Under the pieces are notes generated by a model that saw only the letters and a program-made list of their open reading frames with translations, did not search any database and had not been told where the DNA came from. From Prevotella sp. (GTDB lineage: Bacteria > Bacteroidota > Bacteroidia > Bacteroidales > Bacteroidaceae), in contig JAEEQH010000011.1 in the NCBI GenBank assembly GCA_016285245.1, positions 16,733-80,732 on the forward strand: a stretch of DNA of 64,000 bases. Reading direction: 5' to 3'. The number at the start of each line of letters is the position of its first letter. The first letter of the stretch is position 1. Position numbers and translations under genes: made by a program. Shown here one piece after another: positions 2,492-61,660 of this stretch.

Positions 2492-4222
2492 ATGACAACA
2501 CTGGAATTCAAACCACAGCTCTTTGAGACGCTTAGGAACTACTCGAAGAAGCAGTTCACCACCGACCTCATGGCCGGTATCATCGTCGGTATCGTGGCGC
2601 TGCCGCTGGCCATCGCCTTCGGTATTGCCTCGGGTGTGACACCAGAGAAGGGTATCATCACCGCCATCGTCGCCGGCCTGCTGATATCGGTGCTCGGCGG
2701 CTCGAAGGTGCAGATTGGTGGTCCTACGGGCGCGTTCATTATTATTATCTACGGCATCATCCAACAGTACGGCTTCGAGGGCCTGACTATTGCAACGCTG
2801 ATGGCGGGCGTGTTTCTGATTATGTTTGGCGTGCTCCACTTGGGCACCATCATCAAGTATATCCCGTACCCCATCATCGTAGGCTTCACCTCGGGTATTG
2901 CGCTGACCATCTTTACCACGCAGGTGAAGGACTTGCTGGGACTGACGATGGCGTCGGTGCCGAGCGACTTCATCGAGAAGTGGATAGCCTACGGCGGCGC
3001 CTTTACGACCATCGACTGTTGGAGTGCCGCTGTCGGCGTCGGCAGCGTGGCCCTCATCGCCTTGTGGCCGAAGCTCACAGGGCTCCTTCCTCGTTCCTCG
3101 TTCCTCGGAAAACTCCCCGGCTCGCTGATTGCCATTATCGTAATGACCATTGTCGCCCTGCTGCTGAAGCAGTATGCCGGCGTGACGACCATCGAGACCA
3201 TCGGCGACCGTTTCTCGATATCCAACCAGCTGCCAGGTGCCACGGTGCCCGCCCTGTCGTGGGAGACCATCAAGGGTCTGGTGTCGCCGGCCATCACCAT
3301 TGCCATCCTCGGCGCCATCGAGTCGCTGCTGTCGGCAACGGTGGCCGACGGTGTCATCGGTGCCCGCCATTCCAGTAACACCGAGCTCATTGCCCAGGGC
3401 GTGGCGAACCTCGCCTCACCGCTCTTCGGAGGCATACCCGCCACGGGAGCCATCGCCCGCACGATGACCAACATCAACAACGGCGGCCGCACTCCCGTAG
3501 CCGGCATCATCCACGCTGTGGTGCTACTGCTCATCTTTCTCTTCCTCATGCCCCTGGCACAGTACATCCCGATGGCCTGTCTGGCCGGTGTGCTGGTCAT
3601 CGTCAGCTACGGCATGAGCGGCTGGCGTTCGTTCGCAAGCATCATGAAGAACCCGAAGAGCGATGTCATCGTCCTCTGGGTGACGTTCTTGCTGACAGTC
3701 ATCTTCGACCTCACCATCGCCATCGAGGTAGGACTCATCTGCGCCTGTCTGCTCTTCATGCGCCGTATGGCCGAGACCACCGATGTCAAGGTCATCAGCG
3801 ACGAGATAGACCCCGCCGAGGAGGAGAGCGATTTCCAGCTGGGCAATCTGGAGCACCTGACCATCCCCGAGGGTGTGGAGGTTTACGAGATCAACGGCCC
3901 GTACTTCTTCGGTGCCGGCAACAAGTTCGAGGAGATCATGGGTGCTCTGGGCCACGGCCGTCCGAAGGTGCGCATCATCCGTATGCGTAAGGTGCCCTTC
4001 GTCGACTCCACGGGCATCCACAACCTGACTAACCTCTGTCTGATGTCACAGCAGGAGGGTATCCAGGTGGTCCTCTCGGGTGTCAACGAGCGTGTGCAGG
4101 CCGTCCTCCACAAAGCCCGTTTCGACGAGCTCGTGGGTACCGACAATATCTGTAGCCACATCAATCTGGCTCTGGAGCGTGCCAACGAGTTGGTTGAAAG
4201 GATTGAAAAATTGAAGGAATAA
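2492..4222 (+). CDS. SulP family inorganic anion transporter with STAS domain
   Basis: Start set at MTTLEFKPQLFETLRNYSKKQFTTDLMAGIIVGIVALPLAIAFGIASG; C-terminal STAS 'VPFVDSTGIHNL'. Confidence 0.92.
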   Translation: MTTLEFKPQLFETLRNYSKKQFTTDLMAGIIVGIVALPLAIAFGIASGVTPEKGIITAIVAGLLISVLGGSKVQIGGPTGAFIIIIYGIIQQYGFEGLTIATLMAGVFLIMFGVLHLGTIIKYIPYPIIVGFTSGIALTIFTTQVKDLLGLTMASVPSDFIEKWIAYGGAFTTIDCWSAAVGVGSVALIALWPKLTGLLPRSSFLGKLPGSLIAIIVMTIVALLLKQYAGVTTIETIGDRFSISNQLPGATVPALSWETIKGLVSPAITIAILGAIESLLSATVADGVIGARHSSNTELIAQGVANLASPLFGGIPATGAIARTMTNINNGGRTPVAGIIHAVVLLLIFLFLMPLAQYIPMACLAGVLVIVSYGMSGWRSFASIMKNPKSDVIVLWVTFLLTVIFDLTIAIEVGLICACLLFMRRMAETTDVKVISDEIDPAEEESDFQLGNLEHLTIPEGVEVYEINGPYFFGAGNKFEEIMGALGHGRPKVRIIRMRKVPFVDSTGIHNLTNLCLMSQQEGIQVVLSGVNERVQAVLHKARFDELVGTDNICSHINLALERANELVERIEKLKE

Positions 4223-4256
4223 AATTGAAGAATTGAAAAATTGAAGAATTGAAGTT
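4192..4256. repeat. Word-repeat array (ATTGAAAAATTGAAGAATTGAAG)
   Basis: gttgaaaggattgaaaaattgaaggaataaaattgaagaattgaaaaattgaagaattgaag; runs into the 3' end of the SulP ORF. Confidence 0.8.
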
Positions 4257-7783: not shown

Positions 7784-7822
7784 TCGAAGAATTGTAAAAT
7801 TGAAGAATTGAAAAATTGAAGT
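7784..7822. repeat. Word-repeat array between nuoCD and nuoH
   Basis: tcgaagaattgtaaaattgaagaattgaaaaattgaagt, same words as 4192-4256. Confidence 0.8.
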
Positions 7823-19704: not shown

Positions 19705-22042
19705 CCAGTTTTATTCCGAAGAGGTTCACCGACTTGTCCTTCGTCAGTTCATGACTGCCGGCCTCAAGCGTTGTGGTGTGGGTGTTGCCCGAACCACTGA
19801 TCTTTGCGCCGTCAATCTTGATGCTGGCCGTCTCGGTGGAAGCGAAGTAGAGTGTCATCGTCATCTTCTGCGTCAGCGTGAACTTCACCGACGTGGCCGT
19901 CTCCATCTTCAGACAGGTCTTATACTCCGTACCATCGATGGTGGCCGATCCCTTGCTGTTCGAGCCGTTGCCAGTGACGGTGAAGAGCGCGCTGCTGGGT
20001 TTTCCGCTCTTGTCGAACGTGCAGAGGACTGTTCCCTCCACACCGGGTGTCGGCTGTTCGCCGCCCTGTTCGCCGCCCTGTTCGCCGCCTTGTTCACCAC
20101 CTTGTTCACCACCTTGTTCACCACCTTGCTCACCACCTTGTTCGCCGCTCTCAGCATTCTCGTCGCCGAAGATGCCCACGAGCGTCGTCTTGTAGTTGTC
20201 GAGCAGTCCTCCCAGCACGGGGTCGTAGGCTGAGTCGGTGTCGTCGTTGCCCACATTGTCTGTGAAGGTGTAGCTGAAGTCGCCGTGCCCAATGCGTCCG
20301 GCACCGTAGTATCCCGTGACGATGGCCGGTACGTCGGCAGCGGCATCGGGCGTGTACTGGTAGATGCGTGTGGCGTCGGTGTCGAAGTTGTTATACGTTG
20401 TGCCGCCTTCCTTCGTTACCTCAGTAGCGGGTACCTGCTCGTCGCGTGTAGCAGTCTCGTAGGCATCGTATCCTGTCGTGGCGGGAGCCTTCTGGGTGCA
20501 GTACTTGAAGTTCTTGATGGTGCGGTCAAAGTAGTTGCCGAAGGCCTTGATCATGCCGCCCTTCTCGCCGCTGAAGGTGCCGCTGCCCTGGGCGTCGGTG
20601 CCCTGTAGCGAGGAGAGGATGGGCTTCTTGGTCTTCAGGAAGTAGTTGTTCTCCACGAAGACGCTGGCGCCGCTGGTGGCTCCTACACCATACTTGGCCA
20701 CGTTGTCGAAGTAGTTGTTCCACACGTGGACGGTCATGGTGCGGACACGCGGATGACGGGAGTCTGAGTGGTCGAACCAGTTGTGGTGGTAGCTAATGTA
20801 GTTGGGGCCGCTCTCGTCTTTCATGCCAAACATATTGGTCTTGCCGGTATCCCAGTAGTGGCAGTAGCTGACGGTGACGTACTTCGAGTCGGCTTTCACG
20901 TCGATGGCACCGTCGCCCTTGGCGTGGTCGCCGCCACCGTTGGGGCCGTAGAAGACGTCCATGTGGTGAATCCAGATATTGGAGTTGTCGGTGTCGAGGC
21001 TGAGACCGTCGTCCAGACAGCGCATGATGCCCATGTTACGGAACTCCACGCTCTTGCTGTTGCGCACCAGGAATCCGAAGCTGCGGATGGTGGCATCGTC
21101 GCCGATACCCTCGAAGGTGATGTTCAGTTCGCTGTCAGCCCTACGGCCCTTCACCTGGATGCCTTCCTCCTTGCTGCCCACGGCATCAAGGTCAGCTTTC
21201 TCTACGAGACCGATGAAGCGGAAGGCGATGGGCGTCGTGTCGTAGCCCTTTTCGTAGCCTGTGATGATGGCCTGCAGACCTGTACACTTGGTGGTGCCTC
21301 CCTTGGCGTCGGTCTTAACGGTGGTGGTGATGGTCTTAGCCGTCTGCTTCGTGACGTAGAACACCTTGGCACCTGCCTTCAGCGTGCCGTCGTTGTTGTA
21401 GGCTCCAACGCCCGACTGGTAGTTGAAGTGGGCGTAGCCCGTGCGGTCGTAGCTCTTCACCTCCAGGCTGCTGACGCTGCTGCCCTTGGCGGTCTGCTCG
21501 TTGCCGTTACTGTCGACGGGAACGACCTTCAGCTCATAGGTGCCGGCCTTCAGTCCCACGACGTCGGCACGGCCGTAGCTGCCGTAGTTGCGCACCAGCT
21601 GCTCGTCAATCTTCGTGAAGTCGGTGTACTGTCCGCCCTTGACGTAGACATGATATGTCTTTGCGCCGTCCAGGGGCTGCCACTTGGCATAGACGCTCTC
21701 CAACCATCCCTTCGACTCCGTGATCTTCACGTCGCCGTTGATGATTTCGCCGGGCGTTGGATCGTCGCCAGGTGTCGGTGCTGGGTCGTCGCCGGGCTCC
21801 TCCTGCTGCTGTTTCTTCTGGAAGTGAATCTTTTGCACGTTGCTGTAGCTGTCGCTGCCTACGGTCACCCTGCCGTTGGCGTCAATGGCTATTGCGCCAA
21901 TGACGGCCGTGTTGTAGACCTTCTGGCTGTTATCGTTCAGCGTGATGATGGCCTTGTTGTAGTCATCGCCCGTCTGCTGGGCAGTTGCTGTTGTCAGCAC
22001 TGCCAGCAGTAGGGCTATCGTGAGTAGTAGTTGCTTTTTCAT
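19688..22042 (-). CDS. Secreted pectate lyase-like (PL1) with (EQGG)n linker and C-terminal accessory domain
   Basis: NIWIHHMDVFYGPNGGGDHAKGDGAIDVKADSKYVTVSYCHYWD; YISYHHNWFDHSDSRHPRVR. Confidence 0.88.
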   Translation of the reverse strand: MKKQLLLTIALLLAVLTTATAQQTGDDYNKAIITLNDNSQKVYNTAVIGAIAIDANGRVTVGSDSYSNVQKIHFQKKQQQEEPGDDPAPTPGDDPTPGEIINGDVKITESKGWLESVYAKWQPLDGAKTYHVYVKGGQYTDFTKIDEQLVRNYGSYGRADVVGLKAGTYELKVVPVDSNGNEQTAKGSSVSSLEVKSYDRTGYAHFNYQSGVGAYNNDGTLKAGAKVFYVTKQTAKTITTTVKTDAKGGTTKCTGLQAIITGYEKGYDTTPIAFRFIGLVEKADLDAVGSKEEGIQVKGRRADSELNITFEGIGDDATIRSFGFLVRNSKSVEFRNMGIMRCLDDGLSLDTDNSNIWIHHMDVFYGPNGGGDHAKGDGAIDVKADSKYVTVSYCHYWDTGKTNMFGMKDESGPNYISYHHNWFDHSDSRHPRVRTMTVHVWNNYFDNVAKYGVGATSGASVFVENNYFLKTKKPILSSLQGTDAQGSGTFSGEKGGMIKAFGNYFDRTIKNFKYCTQKAPATTGYDAYETATRDEQVPATEVTKEGGTTYNNFDTDATRIYQYTPDAAADVPAIVTGYYGAGRIGHGDFSYTFTDNVGNDDTDSAYDPVLGGLLDNYKTTLVGIFGDENAESGEQGGEQGGEQGGEQGGEQGGEQGGEQGGEQPTPGVEGTVLCTFDKSGKPSSALFTVTGNGSNSKGSATIDGTEYKTCLKMETATSVKFTLTQKMTMTLYFASTETASIKIDGAKISGSGNTHTTTLEAGSHELTKDKSVNLFGIKLVPVTE
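20054..20147. repeat. 12-bp tandem repeat encoding EQGG linker
   Basis: About 8 units of tgttc[ga]cc[ga]cc[ct]; linker ESGEQGGEQGG...EQPTPG. Confidence 0.9.
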
Positions 22043-22044
22043 TT

Positions 22045-22208
22045 TTTCAATGCTTAATTCTTAATTCTTAATTCTTAATGCTTAATGCTCAATGCTCGAA
22101 CTATCCTCGTTCCTCGTTTTTCGTTCCTCGTTTCTCGTTCCTCGTTTCTCGTTCCTCGTTCCTCGAAGAACTTCAATTTTTCAATTCTTCAATTTTTCAA
22201 TTTTTCAA
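22045..22208. repeat. Composite intergenic word-repeat array (three word families)
   Basis: (TTAATTC/TTAATGC)n, (CTCGTTC/CTCGTTT)n, (TTCAATTTTTCAATT)n fill the gap between 22042 and 22197. Confidence 0.9.
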
Positions 22209-26008: not shown

Positions 26009-26342
26009 AAAGGTTGTCAGGTTGTCAAAACGCCGATATACAAAGGCTTTGCAACCTTTTTGAGGTTGACAGAGGTTGACAAGAGGTTGCCATGATTGTC
26101 TTACAGCCCATAAAGCTGGTCTTTAGCTCCCAATTCTCTCGAGAATTCAACGCTAAAGGTGGTCTTTTCGCGCGAAAAGGTCATCCTCTCAGCCGAAAAG
26201 GTCATCTTCTCAGTCGTAAAGGTCATCTTCTCAGTCGTAAAGGTCACCCCTTTAAAGTTGTCAACCTCTTGTCAACCTCTGTCAACCTCAAAAAGGTTGC
26301 AAAGCCTTTGTATATCGGCGTTTTGACAACCTGACAACCTTT
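26009..26342. repeat. Perfect 81-bp inverted repeat (26009-26089 / 26262-26342) enclosing 172 bp with 21-bp tandem repeats
   Basis: Left arm aaaggttgtcaggttgtcaaaacgccgatatacaaaggctttgcaacctttttgaggttgacagaggttgacaagaggttg equals the reverse complement of the right arm at all 81 positions. Confidence 0.97.
26173..26248. repeat. 21-bp tandem repeat, CG[AT]AAAGGTCATC[TC]TCTCAG[TC], 3 full plus partial units
   Basis: Units start at 26173, 26194, 26215, 26236; a diverged unit starts near 26151. Confidence 0.93.
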
Positions 26343-30757: not shown

Positions 30758-31873
30758 ATGAAAGATGTGACACTGGTCCTGTCTGACGGGACGCAATTCA
30801 AAGGAAAGAGCTTCGGCTACGAGCAGAACGTGGCCGGAGAGGTGGTGTTCAACACGGCCATGATGGGCTACCCGGAGTCGCTCACCGACCCCTCGTATGC
30901 CGGACAGATCATGGTGCTGACGTTCCCCCTGGTGGGAAACTACGGCGTGCCGCCGTTCACCTTCGGCGGTAAGAAGGCCGAGGTGAGCGGTATCGGTACT
31001 GTTCTGCCCGACTTCATGGAGAGCGACCGCATCTATGCCACGGCGCTCATTGTCAGCGACTACTCCGAGCAGTACTCCCACTGGAACGCCGTCGAGAGCC
31101 TCGGCGACTGGCTGAAGCGTGAGCAGGTGCCCGGCGTGACCGGCATCGACACCCGCCAGCTGACGAAGGTGCTGCGCGAGCATGGTGTGATGATGGGACG
31201 ATTGGTGTTTGAGGAGAAGGTTATTGCGACAGAGTCGCAACAAACGTTAGAGGAGGACTACGGCGCCATCAACTGGGTGGAGCGCGTCAGCTGCAAGGAT
31301 GTCATCCGCTACAACGAGGGTGCCGGCAAGAAGGTGGTGCTCGTCGACTGTGGCGTGAAGGCCAACATCATCCGCTGTCTCGTACAGCGCGACGTCGAGG
31401 TGATTCGCGTGCCCTGGAACTACGACTATACGGGCATGGCCTTCGACGGGCTGTTCCTGGCCAACGGTCCCGGCGACCCCGACAAGTGTGTGGACGCCGT
31501 GGAGATACTGAAGAAGCAGATGTCCATGAGCCGCAAGCCCATCTGTGGCATCTGCATGGGAAACCAGCTGCTGGCGAAGGCCGGCGGTGCCACCATCTAC
31601 AAGCTGAAGTACGGTCACCGCTCACACAACCAGCCTGTGCGCGAGGTGGGCACGAACCGCTGCTACGTGACCTCGCAGAACCACGGCTATGCCGTCGACG
31701 CCGCCACGCTGGGCAAGGACTGGCGCGAGCTCTTCGTCAACATGAACGACGGTTCGAACGAGGGTATCCGTCACCAGACGAACCCCTGGTTCTCGAGTCA
31801 GTTCCACCCCGAGGCCTGCTCGGGTCCCGTCGACACGGAGTTTATGTTCGACCGTTTCATTGAAGCGCTGTAG
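30758..31873 (+). CDS. carA: Carbamoyl phosphate synthase small subunit
   Basis: GICMGNQLLAKAGGATIYKLKYGHRSHNQPV; SSQFHPEACSGPVDTEFMFD. Confidence 0.96.
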   Translation: MKDVTLVLSDGTQFKGKSFGYEQNVAGEVVFNTAMMGYPESLTDPSYAGQIMVLTFPLVGNYGVPPFTFGGKKAEVSGIGTVLPDFMESDRIYATALIVSDYSEQYSHWNAVESLGDWLKREQVPGVTGIDTRQLTKVLREHGVMMGRLVFEEKVIATESQQTLEEDYGAINWVERVSCKDVIRYNEGAGKKVVLVDCGVKANIIRCLVQRDVEVIRVPWNYDYTGMAFDGLFLANGPGDPDKCVDAVEILKKQMSMSRKPICGICMGNQLLAKAGGATIYKLKYGHRSHNQPVREVGTNRCYVTSQNHGYAVDAATLGKDWRELFVNMNDGSNEGIRHQTNPWFSSQFHPEACSGPVDTEFMFDRFIEAL

Positions 31874-31914
31874 AGATAGATAAGAGATAATAGATAAGAG
31901 ATAATAGATAAGGG
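31872..31914. repeat. Word-repeat array (AGAGATAATAGATA)n between carA and carB
   Basis: agagatagataagagataatagataagagataatagataaggg. Confidence 0.85.
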
Positions 31915-34900
31915 ATGAGAGACCAAAATATCAAGAAGGTACTGCTGCTGGGTAGCGGCGCATTGAAAATCGGCGAGGCCGGTGAGTTCGACTATAGTGG
32001 AAGCCAGGCGCTGAAAGCCTTGCGCGAGGAGGGCATCAAGACGGTGCTCATCAACCCCAACATTGCCACGGTGCAGACGTCGGAGGGTGTTGCCGACGAG
32101 ATATACTTCCTGCCCGTACAACCCTATTTCGTGGAGAAGGTCATTGCCAAGGAACGTCCCGACGGCATCCTGCTCTCCTTCGGTGGACAGACGGCGCTGA
32201 ACTGCGGCGTGGAGCTCTACCAGAGCGGCGTGCTCGAGAAGTACAATGTCAAGGTGCTGGGCACGCCCGTACAGGCCATCATCGACACCGAGGACCGCGA
32301 GCTGTTCGTCAAGAAGTTGGACGAGATCAGCGTGAAGACCATCAAGAGCCATGCCTGCGAGACGATGGCCGAAGCCCGCGAGGCTGCCGCCGAGCTGGGC
32401 TATCCCGTCATTGTGCGTGCTGCCTATGCGCTGGGCGGCCTGGGCTCGGGCTTCTGCGACAACGAGGATGAGCTGCAGGTGCTCTGCGAGAAAGCCTTCG
32501 CCTTCTCGCCGCAGGTGCTGGTGGAGAAGTCGCTGAAAGGCTGGAAGGAGATAGAGTACGAGGTGGTGCGCGACCGCTATGACAACTGCATCACCGTCTG
32601 TAACATGGAGAACTTCGACCCCCTGGGCATCCATACCGGCGAGTCGATCGTCATCGCACCGAGTCAGACGCTCACCAATTCGGAGTACCACAAGCTGCGC
32701 GCGCTGGCCATCAAGATTATCCGCCACATCGGCATCGTCGGCGAGTGTAACGTGCAGTACGCCTTCGACCCGGAGTCCGAGGACTACCGCGTCATCGAGG
32801 TGAACGCCCGTCTGAGCCGCTCGTCGGCACTCGCCTCGAAGGCGACGGGCTATCCCCTGGCCTTCGTCGCTGCGAAGCTGGGCATGGGCTACGGACTCTT
32901 TGAACTGAAGAACTCGGTCACGAAGACGACGAGCGCCTTCTTCGAGCCGGCACTCGACTACGTGGTCTGCAAGATTCCGCGCTGGGACCTCTCGAAGTTC
33001 CACGGCGTGGACAAGGAGCTGGGCTCGAGCATGAAGAGCGTCGGCGAGGTGATGGCCATCGGCCGTACCTTCGAGGAGGCGCTGCAGAAAGGCCTGCGCA
33101 TGATCGGTCAGGGTATGCACGGCTTTGTGGAGAACAAGGAGCTGAAGATTGCCGACATCGACGCCGCCCTGCGCGAGCCGACGGACAAGCGCGTCTTCGT
33201 CATCTCGAAGGCCATGCACCTGCCGGAGTATACCATCGACAAGATCCATGAGCTGACGAAGATTGACCGCTGGTTCCTGGAGAAGCTGAAGCACATCATC
33301 GACATCGACGAACGTCTGAAGAAGCAGAATATCAATACGCTGGAGGCGTCGCTACTCCGCGAGGCGAAGGTCTACGGATTCACCGACTTCCAGATAGCCC
33401 GCGCCATCGGTCTCGAGGGCGAGATACCGACGATGCACAAGGCCATGCTGCTGGTGCGTAACCGCCGTAAGCAGCTCGGCATCCTGCCCGTGGTGAAACA
33501 GATTGACACCCTGGCAGCCGAGTATCCCGCACAGACCAACTACCTCTACGTCACCTACCAGGGAACAGCCAGCATCGACACCCCTGCAGCCAACATCGAC
33601 GTCGAATATAAGCACGACGGCCGCAGCATCATTGTGCTTGGCTCAGGTGCCTACCGTATCGGCTCGAGTGTGGAGTTCGACTGGTGCGGCGTCCAGGCGC
33701 TGAACACCATCCGCAAGGAGGGCTGGCGCTCGGTGATGATCAACTACAACCCCGAGACGGTATCGACGGATTACGATATGTGCGACCGCCTGTACTTCGA
33801 CGAGCTGACCTTCGAGCGTGTCATGGACATCATCGACATGGAACAGCCGCATGGCGTCATCGTCTCGACAGGTGGACAGATACCCAACAATCTGGCCATG
33901 TACCTCGACGAGGAGCATGTGCCCATCCTCGGCACACAGGCCATCGACATCGACGGCGCCGAGGACCGTGCGAAGTTCTCGCAGATGCTCAACGAGCTGG
34001 GTGTGAACCAGCCGGAGTGGTCGGCGCTGACATCGATGGCGGATATCGACAAGTTCGTCGAGCGGGTAGGCTTCCCCGTACTGGTACGCCCCAGCTATGT
34101 GCTCTCAGGAGCGGCGATGAACGTCTGCTCGAACCGCGACGAGCTGGAACGCTTCCTGAAACTGGCGGCGAACGTCAGCGAGGACCATCCCGTCGTCGTC
34201 TCGAAGTTCATCGAGCACGCCAAGGAGATTGAGATGGACGCCGTGGCCAAGGACGGTGAGATCCTGGCCTACGCCATCTCCGAGCATATCGAGTTTGCCG
34301 GTGTACACTCCGGCGACGCCACCATCCAGTTCCCGCCGCAGAAGCTGTATGTGGAGACGGTGCGCCGCATCAAGCGCATCTCACGACAGATAGCCAAGGC
34401 CCTGCACATCAACGGACCGTTCAATATCCAGTACATGGCGCGCGACAACGACATCCTCGTCATTGAGTGTAACCTCAGGGCCTCGCGCTCGTTCCCCTTC
34501 GTGTCGAAGGTGCTGAAGCTGAACCTCATCGACTTGGCGACACGCGTCATGCTCGGACTGCCTGTTGAAAAACCGTCGAAGAACCTCTTCGACCTCGACT
34601 ATGTGGGTATCAAGGCCTCGCAGTTCTCGTTCAACCGCCTGCAGAAAGCTGACCCCGTGCTGGGTGTCGACATGGCATCGACGGGCGAGGTGGGATGTAT
34701 CGGCGACAATACCGACACCGCCCTGCTCAAGGCCATGCTCAGCGTGGGACACCGCATACCGAAGAAGACGGTGCTGCTCTCGACGGGTGGTGCCAAGCAG
34801 AAGGCCGAGATGCTCGACGCCGCCAGGATGCTCGTGGAGCACGGCTATGAGCTCTACGCCACGGGTGGCACGTCGAAGTACCTGACGGACAACGGCATCG

Positions 34901-45975: not shown

Positions 45976-49035
<3,060 letters not shown>

Positions 49036-49051
49036 ATCACCAATAACCCGT

Positions 49052-50830
49052 ATGAAACAAACCATTATTTCACTCTTCCTCCTGCTGATGGGGGGCGTGC
49101 TGCCGATGAAGGCAGTCAACATTACCGTGGGCGGCACCACCCGCTCGTACAACATCATCGTGCCCAAGAACCTGGGCGAGAACCGTCCGCTGCTCATCTT
49201 CTGTCACGGCTACAACCAGGATGCCAACTGGATGCAGAACGAGGAGTTCAAGAACGACAACGTGAGCATGGAGGCCGTCTGCGACACCGCCAAGTTCATC
49301 TGTGTCTTCCCCAACGGCATCGACAGGGCGTGGGAGACCGGCGGCGACCGCGACATCAATTTCATCAAGGCCATCATCGAGAAGATGGTGACGCAGTACA
49401 AGATCGACCGCAACCGTATCTATATGGGCGGCTTCTCCATGGGCGGTATGCTGACGTACAACGCCATCAACAAGATGTCCGACCAGATTGCCGCTTTCGT
49501 CTCGTGCAGCGGTCCGTCGGTAGTGACGCCTAAGTCCGGACTACGCCCCATTCCCCTGTTGCACATCCAGGGAACGGCCGACAACTGGGGCGGCGTACAG
49601 CCTGCGCTCAACCCGTGGATTAAGCACAACGGCTGCTCGACGACGGAAAAAGTCATCAGCAACTACAACGGCTTCAGCGGCGCCAAGCTGCACATCTGGG
49701 GCCCCGGCAACGACGGCGTGGAAGTGCGGCTCATAGAGCTCAAGGACAAAGGCCACTGGATATGCAAGGAGAAGCAGGTGTACACGGGCAAGGAGATCTG
49801 GAACTTCTGCAAGAAGTATTCGCTGAACAAGACGACGCCCAACGTCAAGATTACCGCCCCGACCACCGGCGACAAGTGCATCAGCTTCGCTCCCAGCGGA
49901 CAGGCATCGTTCCCCGAGATTACCATTACCGCCTCGGCCGACGACCCTAACGGAACCGTGGAGCAGGTGGCGTTCTACGACGGCACGACACTCATAGCCA
50001 CCTGCACCGCCAAGCCCTACAAGGCCACGCTGACGACGACGAAGGTGGGTAAGCACACCCTGAAAGCTGTGGCTACCGACAACGACGGCGAGACGAGTAG
50101 CGCCAGCGTGGAGGTGACGCTGCAGGCTCCCACGTCGCTGACCATCTCGACCGACTTCAAGGAGGGTGGTGCGCTGCCCGCCGGCTGGACTACCTACGAC
50201 AGCAGCGAGCGCCGCACGGGCTATACCAGCGGCTACGACAAGGGCTGCCGCGTCCTGCAGTTCACGGGGTCGCCGAAGGGTTTTAACTATGGCCTCTACT
50301 TCCGCAACATCAACGGCAAGGCCAAGCAGGGCTATGCGAAGTACGGTCTCAGCGGCGCAGGCACGACGCTCCGTCTAGCTCCCGGCCACTACACGCTGAA
50401 GTACAAGATCTGTAACTGGAACATGTCGAACTTCGGCGACGTGGAGCTGGCCGTCGAGAAGCGAACGGGCAGCACGACCATTGCCAGCCAGACGTACACG
50501 CCGGACATCAACATCGGCAACGCAGCCTCCAACAGCTTCAGCAGTCCCGCACAGCAGGCCTTCGAGTTTGACATCGCCGAGCAGGGCGACTACGTCATCG
50601 CCATCTATTCAGCCGCCTCGGAGTGGAGCGACTGCATCGTCGGCCAGCTCATACTGAGTGCTAACAACTATGTGTCGACGGGCATCAGTTCAATGTACAA
50701 TGGACAAGGGACAATGTACAATGGACAATGGATAATGGATAATGAGTTTTACAGCCTGCAGGGCCGCAAAGTCACGAATCCACAAAAGGGCATTTATATC
50801 AAGAACGGCACAAAGGTTGTGATTAAGTAA
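49052..50830 (+). CDS. Secreted CE1/PHB-depolymerase-like esterase with Ig-like and C-terminal sorting-like tail
   Basis: LLIFCHGYNQDANWM, YMGGFSMGGMLTYNAI (GxSxG), tail YSLQGRKVTNPQKGIYIKNGTKVVIK. Confidence 0.85.
   Translation: MKQTIISLFLLLMGGVLPMKAVNITVGGTTRSYNIIVPKNLGENRPLLIFCHGYNQDANWMQNEEFKNDNVSMEAVCDTAKFICVFPNGIDRAWETGGDRDINFIKAIIEKMVTQYKIDRNRIYMGGFSMGGMLTYNAINKMSDQIAAFVSCSGPSVVTPKSGLRPIPLLHIQGTADNWGGVQPALNPWIKHNGCSTTEKVISNYNGFSGAKLHIWGPGNDGVEVRLIELKDKGHWICKEKQVYTGKEIWNFCKKYSLNKTTPNVKITAPTTGDKCISFAPSGQASFPEITITASADDPNGTVEQVAFYDGTTLIATCTAKPYKATLTTTKVGKHTLKAVATDNDGETSSASVEVTLQAPTSLTISTDFKEGGALPAGWTTYDSSERRTGYTSGYDKGCRVLQFTGSPKGFNYGLYFRNINGKAKQGYAKYGLSGAGTTLRLAPGHYTLKYKICNWNMSNFGDVELAVEKRTGSTTIASQTYTPDINIGNAASNSFSSPAQQAFEFDIAEQGDYVIAIYSAASEWSDCIVGQLILSANNYVSTGISSMYNGQGTMYNGQWIMDNEFYSLQGRKVTNPQKGIYIKNGTKVVIK
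50691..50746. repeat. Eight consecutive heptamers inside esterase gene
   Basis: caatgta caatgga caaggga caatgta caatgga caatgga taatgga taatgag. Confidence 0.95.
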
Positions 50831-50908: not shown

Positions 50909-53290
50909 ATGAGAAAGACTATCCTGACCATTTGCTGCCTCCTGTTGACCACGCTGGCAGCAGCTTATAACGATGAGTTCAGTCTGGGTGATGTCACCCT
51001 GCTTGACGGTCCGCTGAAGAAGGCGTGCGACCTGAACGTCAAGACGCTGTTGCAGTATGACTGCGACCGTCTGCTCGCGCCCTATCGCAAGGAGGCCGGG
51101 CTCGAGCCGAAAGCCAAGGCCTATCCCAATTGGGAGGGACTCGACGGCCATGTGGGCGGTCACTACCTGTCGGCGTTGGCCATGAACGCGGCGATGGGCA
51201 ACGCGGAGTGCCTCCGTCGCATGGAGTATATGATCAGCGAGCTGCAGGCGTGTGCCGATGCCAATAGGAAGAACCACGCGGAGTGGGGACGTGGCTACGT
51301 GGGCGGTATGCCCAACAGCGAGCGCATCTGGTCGACGTTCAAGAAGGGCGACTTCGGCACGTACTTCGGCTCGTGGGCCCCGTTCTACAACCTGCACAAG
51401 ATGTATGCCGGCTTACGCGATGCCTGGTGGTATTGCCAAAACGAGCAGGCGAAGATACTCTTCATGGACTTCTGCGACTGGGTCATCGACCTGACGGCCG
51501 ACCTCAGCGACGAACAGATGGAGCGGATGCTCGGTAACGAGCACGGCGGCATGAACGAGGTGCTGGCCGATGCCTACGCCATCTCAAATGGCGACAGGAA
51601 GTATCTCGATGCCGCCAAGCGGTTCTCGCACCGCCGTCTGCTGACACCGATGACACAGCATATTGACAACCTCGACAATATGCACGCCAACACGCAGGTG
51701 CCAAAGGTGGTGGGCTTCCAGCGTATAGCCGAGGTGGCCAGCGACGAGGCCTACTACGAGGCCGCACAGTTCTTCTGGGACGTGGTGACTAGCCAGCGCT
51801 CGCTGGCTTTCGGCGGCAACAGCCGTCGTGAGCATTTCCCCAGCAAGGAAGCCTGCATGGACTTCATCAACGACATCGACGGCCCAGAGACTTGCAACAC
51901 CAACAATATGCTGAAGCTGACGGAAGCGCTGCACCGCCGCAACCCTGAGGCCCGCTATGCCGACTATTTTGAGCTGGCCACGTTCAACCACATCCTCTCG
52001 TCGCAGCATCCCGAGCACGGCGGCTACGTCTACTTCACACCTGCCCGTCCGCGTCACTATCGCAACTACTCGGCGCCGAACGAGGCCATGTGGTGCTGTG
52101 TGGGTACAGGCATGGAGAACCACTCGAAGTATGGCCAGTTCATCTATACACACCGTGGTGACAACCTGTTTGTCAACCTTTTCGTGGCATCGGAGCTGAA
52201 CTGGAAGGAGAAGGACGTCGTACTCCGTCAGGAGACCCTCTTCCCCTATGCCGAGACCAGTCGCATCACCGTCATGCAGGGCAAGGGTGAGTTCTCGCTG
52301 ATGGTGCGCTACCCCAGCTGGGTGAAGCCCGGACAGTTCAGCGTCAAGGTCAATGGCCAGCCCGTGAACATCGTCACTGGCCCCTCGTCCTATGTCACCA
52401 TCGACCGCAAGTGGAAGAAAGGCGACGTGGTGGAGGTCACCTTCCCAATGTATAACTACGTGAAATACCTGCCCAACGAGCCGCAGTACATCGCCCTGAT
52501 GCACGGCCCCATCCTGCTGGCTATGAAGACCGGTACCGAGGATTTGGCCCATCTGGTGGCCGACGACAGCCGCTTCGGCCAGTATGCCAGCGGCAAGAAG
52601 CTGCCCGTCAACGAGGCACCCATCCTCATCGACGACAACATCGAGGACATTGCCAACCAGCTGACCCCCGTCGCCGGCAAGCCCCTCCACTTCAATTTCC
52701 GAAAGGATGGTCAGCTGTCAACTGTTAACTGTCAACTGTCAGCTATCGAACTGATGCCCTTCTTCGAGCTTCACGACGCCCGCTACATGATGTACTGGCT
52801 CGCCCTGTCGGAGCAGAGTTACAAGGGCTATCTCGCCGACCTCGCCCGTCAGGAGCAGGAGCGTCAGGCGCTGGAGGCCCGTACCGTCGACAAGGTACAG
52901 CCCGGTGAGCAGCAGCCCGAGACCGACCACAAGATGGAGACCGACCGCTCGCAAGTTGGCAACACCAACGACACCTTTTGGCGCGATGCCAGCGATGGCC
53001 ACTACTTCAGCTACCTGATGCAGACGGACGGAATGTCTGACCTCTCGCTACGCCTGAAGTACTGGGGCGTGGGCGAATGGAAGAGCCACGAGTTCGACAT
53101 CTTTGTTGACGACGTGCTGGTCATGGAGGTGAACAATACCGGTAAGTACCGCATCTCCGAGTTCAAGTACGAGACCTATCCCATCCCCGCCGAACTGCTG
53201 AAGGGCAAGACACAGGTACGCGTGAAGTTCGTCGCCAAGCCGCGTAAGCAGATAGGCGAGATTTACGAAGTAAGGCTTGTAAAAGAATAA
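50909..53290 (+). CDS. GH127-type (DUF1680) beta-L-arabinofuranosidase-like protein
   Basis: FSLGDVTLLDGPLKKACDLNVKTLLQYDCDRLLAPYRKEAGL, EAMWCCVGTGMENHSKYG. Confidence 0.88.
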   Translation: MRKTILTICCLLLTTLAAAYNDEFSLGDVTLLDGPLKKACDLNVKTLLQYDCDRLLAPYRKEAGLEPKAKAYPNWEGLDGHVGGHYLSALAMNAAMGNAECLRRMEYMISELQACADANRKNHAEWGRGYVGGMPNSERIWSTFKKGDFGTYFGSWAPFYNLHKMYAGLRDAWWYCQNEQAKILFMDFCDWVIDLTADLSDEQMERMLGNEHGGMNEVLADAYAISNGDRKYLDAAKRFSHRRLLTPMTQHIDNLDNMHANTQVPKVVGFQRIAEVASDEAYYEAAQFFWDVVTSQRSLAFGGNSRREHFPSKEACMDFINDIDGPETCNTNNMLKLTEALHRRNPEARYADYFELATFNHILSSQHPEHGGYVYFTPARPRHYRNYSAPNEAMWCCVGTGMENHSKYGQFIYTHRGDNLFVNLFVASELNWKEKDVVLRQETLFPYAETSRITVMQGKGEFSLMVRYPSWVKPGQFSVKVNGQPVNIVTGPSSYVTIDRKWKKGDVVEVTFPMYNYVKYLPNEPQYIALMHGPILLAMKTGTEDLAHLVADDSRFGQYASGKKLPVNEAPILIDDNIEDIANQLTPVAGKPLHFNFRKDGQLSTVNCQLSAIELMPFFELHDARYMMYWLALSEQSYKGYLADLARQEQERQALEARTVDKVQPGEQQPETDHKMETDRSQVGNTNDTFWRDASDGHYFSYLMQTDGMSDLSLRLKYWGVGEWKSHEFDIFVDDVLVMEVNNTGKYRISEFKYETYPIPAELLKGKTQVRVKFVAKPRKQIGEIYEVRLVKE
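52713..52747. repeat. Five heptamers inside GH127 gene
   Basis: agctgtc aactgtt aactgtc aactgtc agctatc. Confidence 0.9.
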
Positions 53291-53338
53291 TAGCCCCTCC
53301 GGCAAGTTGTTTTGAAACGTAACACGAAAAGACTGACA

Positions 53339-55879
53339 ATGACAAGACTCGCATTGATTTCATTGGTGCTCTTTGTCACCATGACCGCATTGGCACATGA
53401 GCAATTCTGCATTGCCAAGGACGGCAAGGCTGCTACAATTGTGGTAGATGAGAATGACTGGAAGGGCGTTATAAGAGCTGCGAACGACTTGAGCGATGAC
53501 ATCCGCAAGGTGATGGGCGTTAGCGGCGCTGTGCGCTTAATTGACAATGGACGATGGACAATTGATAATTCCATCATTGTTGGAACAATTGGCAAGAGCC
53601 GAACCATCGACCGCCTCATCAAGCAGAAGAAGCTGGATGTGAAGAAAATCAAGGGCCACTGGGAGGGCTATGTCATCGATGTGGTGGATGGAAACCTCGT
53701 CATTGCTGGTAACGACAAGCGCGGCACAATCTACGGCATCTACGAAATTTCCCGCCGCATTGGCGTCTCGCCCTGGTACTGGATGGCTGACGCTCCCGTG
53801 GTACACAAGGATGAGCTGTACTACAACGACGGCTACGAATACGACTGGCCTGCCGTGAAGTATCGCGGCATCTTCATCAACGACGAGTGGCCCTCGTTCG
53901 GCACGTGGTGTCAGAAGCACTTCGGCGGCGTGAACTCCAAGGCCTACGAGAAGATATTTGAGCTCTTGCTGCGCCTGAAGGCCAACTATTTCTGGCCAGC
54001 CATGTGGGCGACGGCCTTCAACGAAGACGACCCCGAGAGTCCCCGTCTGGCCGACGAGATGGGTATCGTCATGGGCACCTCGCATCACGAGCCGATGATG
54101 CGCTCGCACCGCGAATACCTGAACCGAAAGGAGCAGGTGGGACCGTGGGACTATGCCACCAATAAGGAACGCGTGGACAAGTTCTTCTGCGAGGGTATGG
54201 AGCGTAACAAGGCGTACGACAACCTCGTAACCATCGGTATGCGCGGCGATGGCGACGTGGCGATGGGCAAGGGCGACGACCAGGAGAACATGAAGACGCT
54301 CCACAATGTTATCGATGGTCAGCGTAAGATTATCAAGGACATCTACGGACGTGCCGACGCCGTGCCTCAGCTTTGGGCCATCTTCACCGAGGTACAACGC
54401 TACTACGATGCCGGCTTTACCGTTCCCGATGACGTGACGCTGCTTTTCTGCGACAACAACTGGGGCTACATCCGCCGCAAGGGCACCGAGAAGGAACGCA
54501 AGCGCAAGGGCGGTCTGGGTCTCTACTACCATATCGACATGAACGGTGGCCCCTGGAACGACCGTTGGGTGAACACCACCACAGTCCCCAAACTCCGCGA
54601 GCAGCTGAACCTCGCCTACCAGAGCGGCATCGACCGCATCTGGATTATCAACGTGGGCGACCTGAAGCCGAAGGAGATGCCTATCTCGTTCATCATGGAC
54701 TATGCCTGGGACCCTGAGAGCGTGGGAGCCGGTGACGAGCAGCAGGGATGGTTACGCCAATGGACACGTAGCGTGCTTGGCGGTTGTGCCGCCGAGGATG
54801 TCAAGGAAGCTGCCGACATCATCGCTGACTATTCGAAGTATAACCTCTGGCGCAAGCCCGAGGTGCAGGTGCCGGGACTCTTCAACTACGCGGAGATGCT
54901 GCGCCTGAACAACCTCTGGCAGTCGGTCGTGCTACGCTGTGAGGCCCTCAAGGAACGTATCCCCGCTGAGGCCCAGGATGCTTTCTACCAGTTGGTCTAC
55001 TATCCCGCCGTGGCTTCGGCTGGCGTGGCCCAGATATACAACGCCGCCACGATGGGTGACAGCATCACCGTCAATCACCTCATGGCGAAAGACCAACGGC
55101 TGACCGACTATTATAATAAGGTGTTGGCTGGCGGAAAGTGGGACGGCATGATGCTCGACAACCATATCGGCTACTCCAAGTGGTCTATTCCCGACAAGAA
55201 CACGCATCCCATGAGTCTTGGCTACAAGGTCGACTACCCGCTGCTCTACTCGTTTGCCACTCCATCGAAGGAATATTCTATTCCTGCCATCGACTTTGTC
55301 AATACGGAGAGGGAGGTACACCCCTGCTTTAACGGCTGGGAGATACTTTGGGGACTCGGTCGCGGCGACGGCTGCTTGGGGGCTGCCGACGTGATGAAGG
55401 AATACCCCAATGGTGACGGCCCGGCGTTGGAGTACGACATTGACCTGTCTCCCAAAGACGGCAAGGGAACCATAGCCATCGGCATCCTACCTACGCAAGA
55501 CATCATGCCCGCTCGCGGTCTGCGTCTTGGCGTGCAGCTCGACAATTGGCCCATGACGACTGTCGACGCCCGTCAGGGACTGCACGACGAATTCCAGGAA
55601 TATACCCCAAAGAACCTCGCCCAATCGAAGAACCTGAAACCTCTCCCCCCACACAACAACCTGCTGCTCAGCGGCTGGAGGAACGGACGGAAGATGCTTC
55701 GCCGCGACGAGGTGTTCGACAACATCCGCTGGCTGGAGGTAAATTTCGTCAATACCACTCCTGGCAAGCACCGCCTGAAGCTCATCATGATCGACCCCGA
55801 AATCGTCATCGAGACCATCGTGGTGAATCCCGACAACAATCGCTACAGCTACTTTGGCGCACCGGCAAGAACAGAATAG
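53339..55879 (+). CDS. GH115-like alpha-glucuronidase
   Basis: WKGVIRAANDLSDDIRKVMG, RGIFINDEWPSFGTWCQKHFGG, LLRLKANYFWPAMWATAFNEDDP. Confidence 0.9.
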   Translation: MTRLALISLVLFVTMTALAHEQFCIAKDGKAATIVVDENDWKGVIRAANDLSDDIRKVMGVSGAVRLIDNGRWTIDNSIIVGTIGKSRTIDRLIKQKKLDVKKIKGHWEGYVIDVVDGNLVIAGNDKRGTIYGIYEISRRIGVSPWYWMADAPVVHKDELYYNDGYEYDWPAVKYRGIFINDEWPSFGTWCQKHFGGVNSKAYEKIFELLLRLKANYFWPAMWATAFNEDDPESPRLADEMGIVMGTSHHEPMMRSHREYLNRKEQVGPWDYATNKERVDKFFCEGMERNKAYDNLVTIGMRGDGDVAMGKGDDQENMKTLHNVIDGQRKIIKDIYGRADAVPQLWAIFTEVQRYYDAGFTVPDDVTLLFCDNNWGYIRRKGTEKERKRKGGLGLYYHIDMNGGPWNDRWVNTTTVPKLREQLNLAYQSGIDRIWIINVGDLKPKEMPISFIMDYAWDPESVGAGDEQQGWLRQWTRSVLGGCAAEDVKEAADIIADYSKYNLWRKPEVQVPGLFNYAEMLRLNNLWQSVVLRCEALKERIPAEAQDAFYQLVYYPAVASAGVAQIYNAATMGDSITVNHLMAKDQRLTDYYNKVLAGGKWDGMMLDNHIGYSKWSIPDKNTHPMSLGYKVDYPLLYSFATPSKEYSIPAIDFVNTEREVHPCFNGWEILWGLGRGDGCLGAADVMKEYPNGDGPALEYDIDLSPKDGKGTIAIGILPTQDIMPARGLRLGVQLDNWPMTTVDARQGLHDEFQEYTPKNLAQSKNLKPLPPHNNLLLSGWRNGRKMLRRDEVFDNIRWLEVNFVNTTPGKHRLKLIMIDPEIVIETIVVNPDNNRYSYFGAPARTE
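53540..53567. repeat. Heptamer array inside GH115 gene
   Basis: ttgacaa tggacga tggacaa ttgataa; encodes IDNGRWTIDN. Confidence 0.85.
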
Positions 55880-55892
55880 AAACAGAACAAAG

Positions 55893-57665
55893 ATGATTGA
55901 CATGAAGAGGCTATTCACTATGGGTTGTCTGCTGCTGGCTTTGAACGCGGCAGCCCAAACGGCACCTTTCGGCCCTGTGCCCACGGAGAACCAGCTGCGG
56001 TGGCAGGACATGGAGATGTACGCGTTTATCCACTACTCGCTGAACACGTATACCGATCAGGAGTGGGGCTTTGGCAACGAAGACCCGCAGCTGTTCAATC
56101 CCTCGGACCTCGACTGCCGCCAGTGGGCACGGGTCTGTAAGCAGGCGGGCATGAAGGGCATCATCTTCACCGCCAAACACCATTGCGGCTTCTGTATGTG
56201 GCCAAGTTCCTACACCGAGTACAGCGTAAAGAACGCCCCTTGGAAGAACGGCAAGGGCGACGTGGTGCGCGAGTTGGCCGATGCCTGCCGCGAGGAGGGA
56301 CTGAAGTTTGCCGTCTACCTCTCGCCTTGGGACAGGAACCACGCGGACTACGGACGGCCGGAATACGTGACGTATTTCCGCAACCAGCTCCGTGAACTGC
56401 TCACCCAGTATGGCGACATCTTCGAGGTGTGGTTCGATGGTGCCAACGGCGGCGACGGCTGGTATGGCGGCGCGAATGAGACACGACGCATAGACGGCCG
56501 CACGTACTACGGCTGGGCGGAGACGTTCCGCATGATCCGTGAGCTGCAGCCGGGAGCCGTCATCTGGAACGACGGTGGCGACCGTGGCGACCTGCGCTGG
56601 GTGGGCACCGAGGCCGGTAACGTGGGCGAGACAAACTGGAGCCTGATGCCGGCGACGGGCGACACCCCCTGGCACATGCTGCACTACGGCGTGGAGAACG
56701 GCGACGTGTGGTGTCCCGGCGAGACGAACACCAGCATCCGTCCGGGCTGGTTCTACCACGAGACGGAGAACGAACACGTGAAGAGCCTGTCGAAGCTCAT
56801 GGATACCTATTACAAGAGCGTGGGCCGCAACTCGACGCTGCTGCTCAACTTCCCCATCGCCCCGAACGGGCGGATACACCCGACGGACAGTCTGCGTGGT
56901 ATCGCCTTCAAGAAGATGATAGACGAGGTGTTCGTCAATGGAAGTGTAGAGTTTAGAGTGGATAGTGTAGAGTTTGCTACCGCCTTTCCTGCAGAAGAAG
57001 GGACAGCGGTAGCAAACTCTACACTCTACACTCTAAACTTCAAACAGCCCACGGCCATGAACCGTTTCGTGGCCGAGGAGGATATAGCCTTGGGCCAGCG
57101 GGTGAAGAATTTCTCGTTGGAGGCTGAGGTTGATGGCAAATGGGTGCCATTGCGCGATATGCTCGTTGAGAACGGTGACGGGCTGACGACTATCGGCCAC
57201 CGCCGTATCGTCTGCTTCCCGACGGTCCAGGCGACGAAGCTACGCTTCACGATAACGGACAGCAAGGCCGCGCCCGTCATCAAACGACTCGGCGTCTATC
57301 TGGCTCCCGAGCTGACGGCTGACATCCCTGACAGCGGCGAGAAGAAGTCGTCGGCGCTACACATCTTCTTTAGCTCGCCCCGTCAGATGATGGTTGACTG
57401 GGACACAGAGCAGACGTTTACCACGTTCCGCTACCTGCCGCCGCAGAACACCCGCGACGGTCTGATTACGCACTACACCCTCTGGGCCTCGACGGACTGG
57501 GCACACTGGACGAAGCTCGCCTCCGGTGAGTTCTCGAACATCGTCAACAACCCCATCTGGCAGACCATCAAGTTCCCGGCCACGAAGGCACGCATACTGA
57601 AACTCGATGCCGACCGCCTGGCCGAGGGCGAGCGCATGGGTTACGGCGATGTGGACTTCTACTAA
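55893..57665 (+). CDS. Alpha-L-fucosidase-like, GH29
   Basis: MEMYAFIHYSLNTYTDQEWGFGNEDPQLFNPSDLDCRQWARVCKQAGMKGIIFTAKHHCGFCMWPS. Confidence 0.92.
   Translation: MIDMKRLFTMGCLLLALNAAAQTAPFGPVPTENQLRWQDMEMYAFIHYSLNTYTDQEWGFGNEDPQLFNPSDLDCRQWARVCKQAGMKGIIFTAKHHCGFCMWPSSYTEYSVKNAPWKNGKGDVVRELADACREEGLKFAVYLSPWDRNHADYGRPEYVTYFRNQLRELLTQYGDIFEVWFDGANGGDGWYGGANETRRIDGRTYYGWAETFRMIRELQPGAVIWNDGGDRGDLRWVGTEAGNVGETNWSLMPATGDTPWHMLHYGVENGDVWCPGETNTSIRPGWFYHETENEHVKSLSKLMDTYYKSVGRNSTLLLNFPIAPNGRIHPTDSLRGIAFKKMIDEVFVNGSVEFRVDSVEFATAFPAEEGTAVANSTLYTLNFKQPTAMNRFVAEEDIALGQRVKNFSLEAEVDGKWVPLRDMLVENGDGLTTIGHRRIVCFPTVQATKLRFTITDSKAAPVIKRLGVYLAPELTADIPDSGEKKSSALHIFFSSPRQMMVDWDTEQTFTTFRYLPPQNTRDGLITHYTLWASTDWAHWTKLASGEFSNIVNNPIWQTIKFPATKARILKLDADRLAEGERMGYGDVDFY
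56950..57039. repeat. In-frame hairpin insertion in GH29 gene: 34-bp inverted repeat, 2 mismatches, 22-bp spacer
   Basis: agtttagagtggatagtgtagagtttgctaccgc (56950-56983) / gcggtagcaaactctacactctacactctaaact (57006-57039). Confidence 0.93.
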
Positions 57666-59828: not shown

Positions 59829-61601
59829 TTAATGTTTGAAGTATTTCTTGCCGTTGGTGATGACGATGCCGCGGCCGTCGCGTGTCTGGCGACCGGCAAG
59901 GTCGTAGGTGTTGCCGTCCGAAGAGTGGGGGAGGCTGACGGCGTTGACGGCCGTCGTCCCTTTCTTCACGACGCTGATGTAGTCCATGTCGGGCATCCAG
60001 CCGGTGCTGTTCGACAGGCGGATGACGTTCTCGCCGGGCTCTAGGGTGATGTCGAGCTTCTTCGTGCCGATGGTGCCCCACCCGCCGGAGTGGTAGCTCT
60101 GCGTCTTCACCGTCTTGCCGTTGACGCTGAGGGTCATGCTACGGCTCTCGCCGCTGATGTAGCCGATGGTCAGCTCGTAGTCGCCGCCCTCCTGGCTGTA
60201 GACGTTGCGCCACTCCAGGTAGTTGGTCGAGGACTTGCCTAAGTAGCCGGCCTTGTAACCGCCTGAGCAGGTGGACGATTCCGAGTACTGGCAGACGTTG
60301 CCCGTTATCTCCGAGTAGGCTTTTGAGTAGCCTGTCTCGGCCTCGTAGAGCGTGCGCTCCAGTCGGGTCTGAGCCTGTGCGACGTAGATCTTCGTGCCGT
60401 GGGCGGGCACCTTCACCGTGTAGGTGCCTTTGTACTGTCCCACGTCCTTCTTCGTGAAGCAGTCGTGGAGGCTGACGCTGTCGGCGAGGTCTATGTCGCT
60501 GAAGTTCATGGTCACCGAGCGCTGGCCGTCGTTGGGGTTGTAGATGGCGAAGGCGCGCTTCAGTCCGTAGGCCGTCTCGATGTCCTTCACCATGATGTAG
60601 CAGCCGTTCACCTTCTTCGCGAGGTAGGCCTGATGGTAGAGCGTGTCCTGGTTCAGGGCTATGAGCTCCGTGTTCTTCAGCAGGTTGAGGTTCGTGCTGT
60701 TCAGGTCTTTCATGTTACAGCCGATGAGCAGGGGCGAGTTCATAATGCACCACATACCGAAGTGGGTCTTGGCCTCCTCGTTGGTCAGCTTGGTATTTCC
60801 CCATTTCGTGACGCCCACCTCCAGCATGTCCATGTCGTTGTAGTGGCCCTTGCTGCAGTAGGCGCTCATGTAGAGGTTCTGTGCCAGGATGTCCTTCACC
60901 GAGTCCCAGCTGGGGTTGATGTCCTGGGTCGTGCGCCACGAGAAAGCGGCATCGTCGGCCCATGTACCGGGGTATGCCCATCGGCAGATGTTCATGCGCA
61001 CATCGTTGCGGCCGGTGTTCTTGATGGCCTTGGCGATGGCAGTGTAGCGCTGCTTCTCGTTGAGGATCAGGTTCTCATTGTTATGGCCGACGGCGCCGCC
61101 GCAGAAGTCGACCTTGATGAAGTCGAAGCCCAGGTCCTTGAAGAACATATCGCAGTCCTGTTGGTCGTGCTCATAGAGTCCCACGCCCACGCCGTCATTG
61201 TCGCCACCGTGATAGCTGCCGCAGGTGTTGTGCCCGCCGTCGCTGTAGATGCCGGCCTTCAGGCCCTTCTTGTGGATGTAGTCCACCACGGGCTGCAGGC
61301 CGTTGGGGAATCGGGTGGGGTGTATCTTCAGCTTGCCCGTCGTCTTGTCGCGACCACCGAAGTAGCCGTCGTCGATGTTGATGTGGTTGTAGCCGACGGC
61401 CGACAATCCTTTCGACACGATGGCATCAGCCTGTCCCTTGATGATCGACTCGCTGATTTGCAGTTCAAACGTGTTCCACGAGCTCCAGCCCATCGTGGGG
61501 CCGTAGTCGATGCTGTCCTTTTGGGCGCCGTCTTCAGCGGCGACAGTCAGAGCTGCCGCCGCCAAGATGGCTGTACATAGTGTTTTCTTCAGCTGTTTCA
61601 A
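59829..61601 (-). CDS. Alpha-galactosidase, GH27, with C-terminal carbohydrate-binding module and sorting-like tail
   Basis: YGPTMGWSSWNTFELQISE, FDFIKVDFCGG, tail NTYDLAGRQTRDGRGIVITNGKKYFKH. Confidence 0.92.
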   Translation of the reverse strand: MKQLKKTLCTAILAAAALTVAAEDGAQKDSIDYGPTMGWSSWNTFELQISESIIKGQADAIVSKGLSAVGYNHINIDDGYFGGRDKTTGKLKIHPTRFPNGLQPVVDYIHKKGLKAGIYSDGGHNTCGSYHGGDNDGVGVGLYEHDQQDCDMFFKDLGFDFIKVDFCGGAVGHNNENLILNEKQRYTAIAKAIKNTGRNDVRMNICRWAYPGTWADDAAFSWRTTQDINPSWDSVKDILAQNLYMSAYCSKGHYNDMDMLEVGVTKWGNTKLTNEEAKTHFGMWCIMNSPLLIGCNMKDLNSTNLNLLKNTELIALNQDTLYHQAYLAKKVNGCYIMVKDIETAYGLKRAFAIYNPNDGQRSVTMNFSDIDLADSVSLHDCFTKKDVGQYKGTYTVKVPAHGTKIYVAQAQTRLERTLYEAETGYSKAYSEITGNVCQYSESSTCSGGYKAGYLGKSSTNYLEWRNVYSQEGGDYELTIGYISGESRSMTLSVNGKTVKTQSYHSGGWGTIGTKKLDITLEPGENVIRLSNSTGWMPDMDYISVVKKGTTAVNAVSLPHSSDGNTYDLAGRQTRDGRGIVITNGKKYFKH

Positions 61602-61660
61602 TTGTCAATTATGAATTGTCAATTATCAATTCTTATCTATTATCTCTTATCTCTTATCTG
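61600..61660. repeat. Composite word-repeat array between GH27 and FGGY kinase
   Basis: aattgtcaattatgaattgtcaattatcaattcttatctattatctcttatctcttatct. Confidence 0.88.

Follow-up and report, generated by a model that had tools for sequence, protein, structure and literature searches.

Short tandemly repeated repetitive (STRR) sequences are families of heptanucleotide repeats in cyanobacteria such as Calothrix and Nostoc. Direct repeats of the heptamer TAACTGA, located for the most part ahead of start codons, occur in Beggiatoaceae, cyanobacteria, and some Bacteroidetes (MacGregor, 2015; PMC4679880), and GGGNATC arrays, of which mainly the intergenic repeats were studied, number approximately 186 per genome in Xanthomonas and Nostoc (Rehm, 2015; PMC4692102). 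Rickettsia palindromic elements (RPEs) are short palindromes that lie in frame in unrelated genes and encode a common peptide (PMC10969869), and the BrickBuilt MITE of Porphyromonas gingivalis has a 23-bp unit and is always intergenic (PMC4596501). Our literature search found no paper on heptamer repeats or palindromic elements in Prevotella.

The window, i.e., the whole 64,000-nt stretch of DNA analyzed here, belongs to a rumen Prevotella MAG (81% complete, 2.77 Mb, 60 contigs) and contains a secreted esterase gene with eight uninterrupted heptamers (in order, CAATGTA, CAATGGA, CAAGGGA, CAATGTA, CAATGGA, CAATGGA, TAATGGA, and TAATGAG). Four genes beside the esterase, in the same polysaccharide-utilization cluster, also carry translated heptamers. 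The features of this region are as follows:

47835–47912, + strand: inverted heptamer pair (AATTGAT-type, then TCCATTA-type, with a 16-bp spacer) in the GH2 beta-galactosidase gene at 45994–49035
49052–50830, + strand: secreted esterase gene (592 aa) with an alpha/beta-hydrolase, a Big_7 domain, and a C-terminal sorting-like tail
50691–50746, + strand: solo array of eight heptamers, YAATGGA type, translated, between the esterase body and the tail
50747–50827, + strand: C-terminal tail FYSLQGRKVTNPQKGIYIKNGTKVVIK, kept in orthologues beyond the variable linker
52710–52753, + strand: translated heptamers, GTCAACT type, in the GH127 gene at 50909–53290
53539–53570, + strand: translated heptamers, AATTGAC/AATGGAC type, in the GH115 gene at 53312–55879
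56950–57039, + strand: complete 90-bp heptamer-armed hairpin, core TTTGCTACCGC...GCGGTAGCAAA, in frame in the alpha-L-fucosidase gene at 55854–57665

The original prediction, that eight uninterrupted heptamers lie in frame in a secreted esterase at the junction of its body and tail, was borne out. The array is in frame within the open reading frame at 49052–50830 and encodes S-MYNGQGTMYNGQWIMDNE-F. TRF reports a period of 7 with 7.7 copies and an 87% match, and the period-7 score is 29, whereas the highest score among 60 simulations of 64 kb each, generated by a first-order Markov model with the dinucleotide composition of the window, was 10. The esterase has Abhydrolase_2 and Big_7 domains, and its match to the NCBIfam PHB-depolymerase-type esterase model falls below the cut-off of that model. 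The array is located between the C-terminal domain and the tail, which is common to other secreted proteins of the same genome; SprA of the type IX secretion system is also encoded in this genome. The Pfam and NCBIfam sorting-domain models gave no match to the tail, and because no curated model matches it, we only infer that it is a sorting tail.

The array is lineage-specific. Amongst approximately 70 named rumen Prevotella/Bacteroidales orthologues, obtained from rumen Prevotella MAGs, most linkers are 66–81 nt long and lack a period of 7 (scores mostly 2–6, like other periods). The window linker is the longest (93 nt, period-7 score 25) and exceeds that of the nearest orthologue by approximately 5 aa; the segment is thus mostly absent or variable amongst orthologues, as the original prediction had anticipated. 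The G007 orthologue, whose protein is 80% identical, has different heptamers at the same place (G007/L177: AAATGAT, AAAGGAG, AAATGAT, and AAATGAT). Two further linkers, L221 and L223, contain CAATTCA/CATAATG-type heptamers (scores 15–16), L234 has GTTCAAC heptamers at the same place, and L239, L198, and L218 also carry other heptamers at this site, some of these arrays being short. Moreover, a paralogue with 40% identity, on contig C34, has its own heptamer array at the same spot. The linker peptide differs in every heptamer-bearing orthologue, with neither sequence nor length conserved, and no conserved linker peptide encoded by different codons was seen amongst the approximately 70 orthologues. 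Judging from these alignments, the esterase linker looks like a permissive site where arrays come and go.

Heptamer arrays are dispersed over the genome. A sample of 791 kb (approximately 29% of the genome, partly chosen around arrays, so that densities are approximate) contains 80 period-7 arrays, compared to none for each of periods 3, 4, and 5, three for period 6, 19 for period 8, 23 for period 9, and one each for periods 10 and 11. Recurrent unit families include GAGGAAC (15 arrays), AATTATC (9), AAGCATT (8), and others. The genome-wide count proposed with the original prediction gave 60 occurrences of three consecutive YAATKGA units in this genome and none of the reversed pattern. Across MAGs sampled as one genome per species, 69 of the 150 genomes from this genus have the same threefold pattern and 81 are heptamer-free, with a range of 0 to 139 occurrences per genome. 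In the phylum as a whole, 49 of 346 sampled genomes have it, among them members of a family outside the class. In that family (f33), G457 and other genomes have up to 158 hits per genome.

By description, these arrays resemble the STRR sequences in being tandem units of exactly 7 nt, well above chance and at many dispersed loci, with several unit families per genome. The Prevotella arrays differ in belonging to another phylum and in being translated in about half of the cases, with 51 of 96 arrays in predicted genes, whereas STRR sequences are typically, if not by definition, mainly noncoding. The earlier description of STRR-like heptamers that are translated in a Bacteroidota genome is accordingly supported as an analogy that extends to many loci. 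Beyond that description, there are several unit families, some of the arrays form polarized inverted pairs, and one family is part of a recurrent hairpin element. The TAACTGA repeats are likewise dispersed heptamers with examples in Bacteroidetes, and TAACTGA is one base from TAATTGA; however, they comprise one unit, whereas Prevotella has many units on both strands, in genes as well as spacers (PMC4679880).

Other repeats of the window were also recorded. An intergenic composite block (22049–22208) consists of AATGCTT-type heptamers followed by TCCTCGT-type heptamers and an 8-bp TTCAATTT repeat, an intergenic array at 31872–31922 is of the AGATAAG type, and another at 61598–61659 changes its unit midway from TCAATTA to TCTTATC. 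Period 8/16 repeats (GAAGAATTGAAAAATT) are located at 4198–4254 and 7786–7821, a 12-bp repeat (TGTTCACCACCT, 7.4 copies) at 20055–20143, and a 21-bp repeat (3.5 copies) at 26173–26246, with GAGGTTGACAA motifs adjoining the latter two.

Within arrays, neighboring units are more alike than distant ones: similarity is 0.857 at lag 1 and has dropped to 0.758 by lag 5, which fits stepwise expansion. Departures from an array's own consensus are concentrated at certain unit positions, which recur from one independent array to another. In the TAATTGA family, position 1 departs in 24% of units compared to 2–6% elsewhere, and in the GAGGAAC family, positions 7, 6, and 4 depart in 30, 15, and 11%, with 0–2% at positions 1, 2, 3, and 5. 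The corresponding p values of about 1e-19 (TAATTGA) and 1e-22 (GAGGAAC) are too small, as they treat units as independent, which they are not. In a set of viral contigs, the TAATTGA family is likewise variable at positions 1 and 5, but the search pattern was degenerate exactly there. The agreement of positions across arrays of the unselected Prevotella sample is hard to obtain by neutral decay. Conserved and variable unit positions are also found in the GGGNATC repeats, along with some inverted pairs in convergent orientation, and a similar pattern of fixed and free positions, GGGANTN, has been described for Xanthomonas (PMC4692102); a G-quadruplex explanation is inapplicable to AATTGAT-type units. 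A G-quadruplex basis was rejected for the Prevotella arrays because many units have no G runs.

Based on gene calls from a simple, home-made codon-usage script, the 51 of 96 arrays in predicted genes represent fewer coding arrays than the 88% coding fraction would give. As 7 and 3 have no common factor, stops in a perfect array block every one of the three frames of a strand or none of them. Of 38 arrays whose units are open on both strands, 32 are coding, near the 88% coding fraction; of 12 with stops on both strands, one is coding. In comparison to G007, the nearest relative with data, the six coding insertions (12, 21, 30, 48, 102, and 156 bp) are all multiples of 3, and the intergenic insertions (1, 106, and 131) are not. 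At the GH115 site, the sequence of the G007 orthologue is of almost the same length but unrelated. This pattern of stops and frames is as predicted by indiscriminate appearance of arrays followed by purifying selection. The gene-borne arrays are in frame and lineage-specific and avoid stop-containing units. This is new here, as are the nearly invariant and the free heptamer positions described above and, described below, the recurrent hairpin core and the one-way order of inverted pairs.

The fucosidase gene of the same cluster carries a more complete structure. The 90-bp segment at 56950–57039 is a near-perfect hairpin (z = -12 in single-stranded DNA folding), and the core TTTGCTRCCGC-loop-GCGGYAGCAAA is common to two pairs in this genome. 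Of 249 genomes from the genus, 46 contain this core, in up to 21 copies; the reversed control matched a single genome. Among 12 copies that were read, nearly all have GAGTGTA/GAGTGAA-type heptamers on one or both sides, L392 being without them. The element is translated in one frame (...VESVE-FATA...AVAN-SPLSTLHS...), and its hosts in frame 0 are an ABC transporter, RsmF (two copies in one protein), GMP synthase, and the fucosidase of the window, the hosts other than the fucosidase being from related species. When aligned with solved structures, residues 168–204 of the GMP synthase are unaligned and the fucosidase has about 15 extra residues. Separate from the core hairpin, the GH2 pair is of the YAATKGA type and corresponds to a 20-aa insertion relative to the solved beta-galactosidase 6sd0.

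By description rather than by sequence, this hairpin class resembles the RPEs, as its members are dispersed palindromes that lie in frame in unrelated conserved genes and encode a conserved peptide (FATA...AVAN) (PMC10969869); their 90 bp is slightly below the RPE range of roughly 100–150 bp. The arms in Prevotella, unlike those of RPEs, are heptamer arrays. The esterase array itself has a weak fold and is not palindromic, and thus lacks the palindrome of core and two arms that defines an RPE. The BrickBuilt MITE likewise combines a tandem repeat with inverted ends in a Bacteroidales genome (PMC4596501), but its 23-bp unit is restricted to intergenic regions, whereas the 7-bp Prevotella units are partly in genes. 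A Y1 transposase in the repeat-carrying genomes, which characterizes the REP/RAYT class, was not consistently found: 10 core-carrying genomes, including this one, had no counted Y1/RAYT match, although many of them are incomplete MAGs. The Y1 count was not associated with core copies (Spearman 0.07, p 0.40), its correlation with heptamers (0.24) is confounded by kinship, and a Y1/RAYT transposase was rejected as the driver. A single mobile core for all arrays was also rejected, since the flanks of 184 arrays are mostly unrelated.

Some arrays form inverted pairs that flank a core of roughly 16–80 bp, with the unit flavor alike within each pair. Where the unit is common to both arms, the order is always GA-rich arm, core, and TC-rich arm. 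The counts were 8:0 in two Prevotella samples and, in a search of 150 genomes with mirror-image patterns, 10:0 sites. The ratio in IMG/VR contigs was 60:0, or 36:0 with a stricter pattern; these contigs were retrieved by repeat search and are uninformative on phage frequency, and copies within one contig are not independent. At least some of the contigs are true phage DNA, as the terminase of L302 is 77.5% identical to a Porphyromonas phage terminase and L307 encodes a capsid protein related to phage capsids. A known Porphyromonas phage was rejected as the carrier because the annotated relative phage005b has no heptamer arrays, and the arrays of L302 are therefore not general to that phage group. 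Repeated heptamer-armed hairpins with a common core (GTCGCCGAAGGCGACACCTTCATTG) were seen in the phage-like IMG/VR contigs L267, L307, L362, and L401, and L267 and L307 each have three arm flavors with different core lengths. A large terminase gene of a Porphyromonas phage (L389; PP754928.1, 17686–20133) aligns with the L302 terminase as two segments that together span approximately 970 bp more than the homologue, which suggests an insertion within the gene.

We consider it probable, at roughly 60%, that the esterase segment is a lineage-specific, STRR-like heptamer array, near-neutral and expanded locally in a tolerant linker. Heptamer arrays from several families of units would be generated or acquired by the genome at hundreds of sites, regardless of genes, and those whose stop or frameshift disrupts a gene would be lost. 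The linker before the tail would tolerate any stop-free filler, so that a 56-bp in-frame array could persist and leave the linker approximately 5 aa longer. The linker peptide would have no selected sequence, although the length of the linker could still have a role. The near-neutrality and the local, slippage-type expansion are inferred. Pure slippage from random seeds, however, predicts random units, whereas the same units recur in 69 of 150 and 49 of 346 genomes, and variation is concentrated at fixed unit positions. The occurrence of the same units in distant lineages, together with the fixed positions and the polarity of pairs, is therefore not explained by slippage alone and points to a link with the family of heptamer-armed hairpin elements. 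A rival, rather doubtful scenario is that the esterase array is one arm left from the in-frame insertion of such a hairpin, an RPE-like selfish repeat, the core and second arm having been lost. Armed hairpins do occur in the same gene cluster and in the genus, where they occupy one frame in conserved genes, and their arms are matched in flavor. However, a search to 200 bp from the esterase array revealed neither a core nor an inverted arm, the recurrent core accompanies GAGTG-type arms and not YAATKGA, and most arrays are solo, with no arm bias in genes (24 purine-sense versus 27 pyrimidine-sense).

It is improbable that the array is a contingency locus in which one-heptamer changes shift the frame, remove the tail, and switch the esterase between anchored and truncated forms. 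In silico, the loss or gain of one unit or the loss of two stops translation before the tail, and the loss of three retains it; moreover, SprA is present, and heptamers also occupy this position in the paralogue and in several orthologues. Most orthologues nevertheless have no array, about half of the arrays of the genome are outside genes, and imperfections like those of this array should make slippage less frequent. A selected peptide linker, e.g., a spacer for secretion or anchoring, is still harder to reconcile with the data even though spacers are common at junctions of domain and tail, as its codons are dictated by the DNA repeat and the same repeats occur in noncoding DNA and unrelated proteins; we rejected a functional peptide because the linker is not conserved amongst orthologues. 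The MAG of 60 contigs leaves some room for an assembly artefact or a chance repeat, but we regard this as scarcely credible given the score of 29 versus at most 10 in simulated windows and the occurrence of independent arrays at numerous other loci as well as in relatives, one of which is a congeneric genome in a single contig.

Beyond the probably near-neutral array in the esterase linker, we tentatively propose, as a possibility well short of even odds, that the solo arrays and armed hairpins may be products of one mobile repeat system active across Bacteroidota and their phages. A dedicated, sequence-selective copying process, rather than ordinary slippage, would hold certain unit positions constant while leaving others free and would build inverted pairs in a single orientation; in-frame, stop-free units would allow the elements to settle in conserved genes.

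Bacterial heptamer repeats have been on record for decades, but no mechanism has been assigned to them. Prevotella makes the rival mechanisms testable, as the genus offers hundreds of arrays, approximately half of them in genes, with empty sites in relatives, polarity, and fixed and variable unit positions. For annotation, Prevotella peptides such as NGQWTMDNGQW, NYQLSII, and EERGTRN can be taken for translated repeat DNA instead of motifs. Selfish palindromes are so far best known from Rickettsia, and the in-frame hairpins of GMP synthase, RsmF, and glycoside hydrolases would provide an independent example; they also illustrate how repeat DNA adds loops to enzymes.
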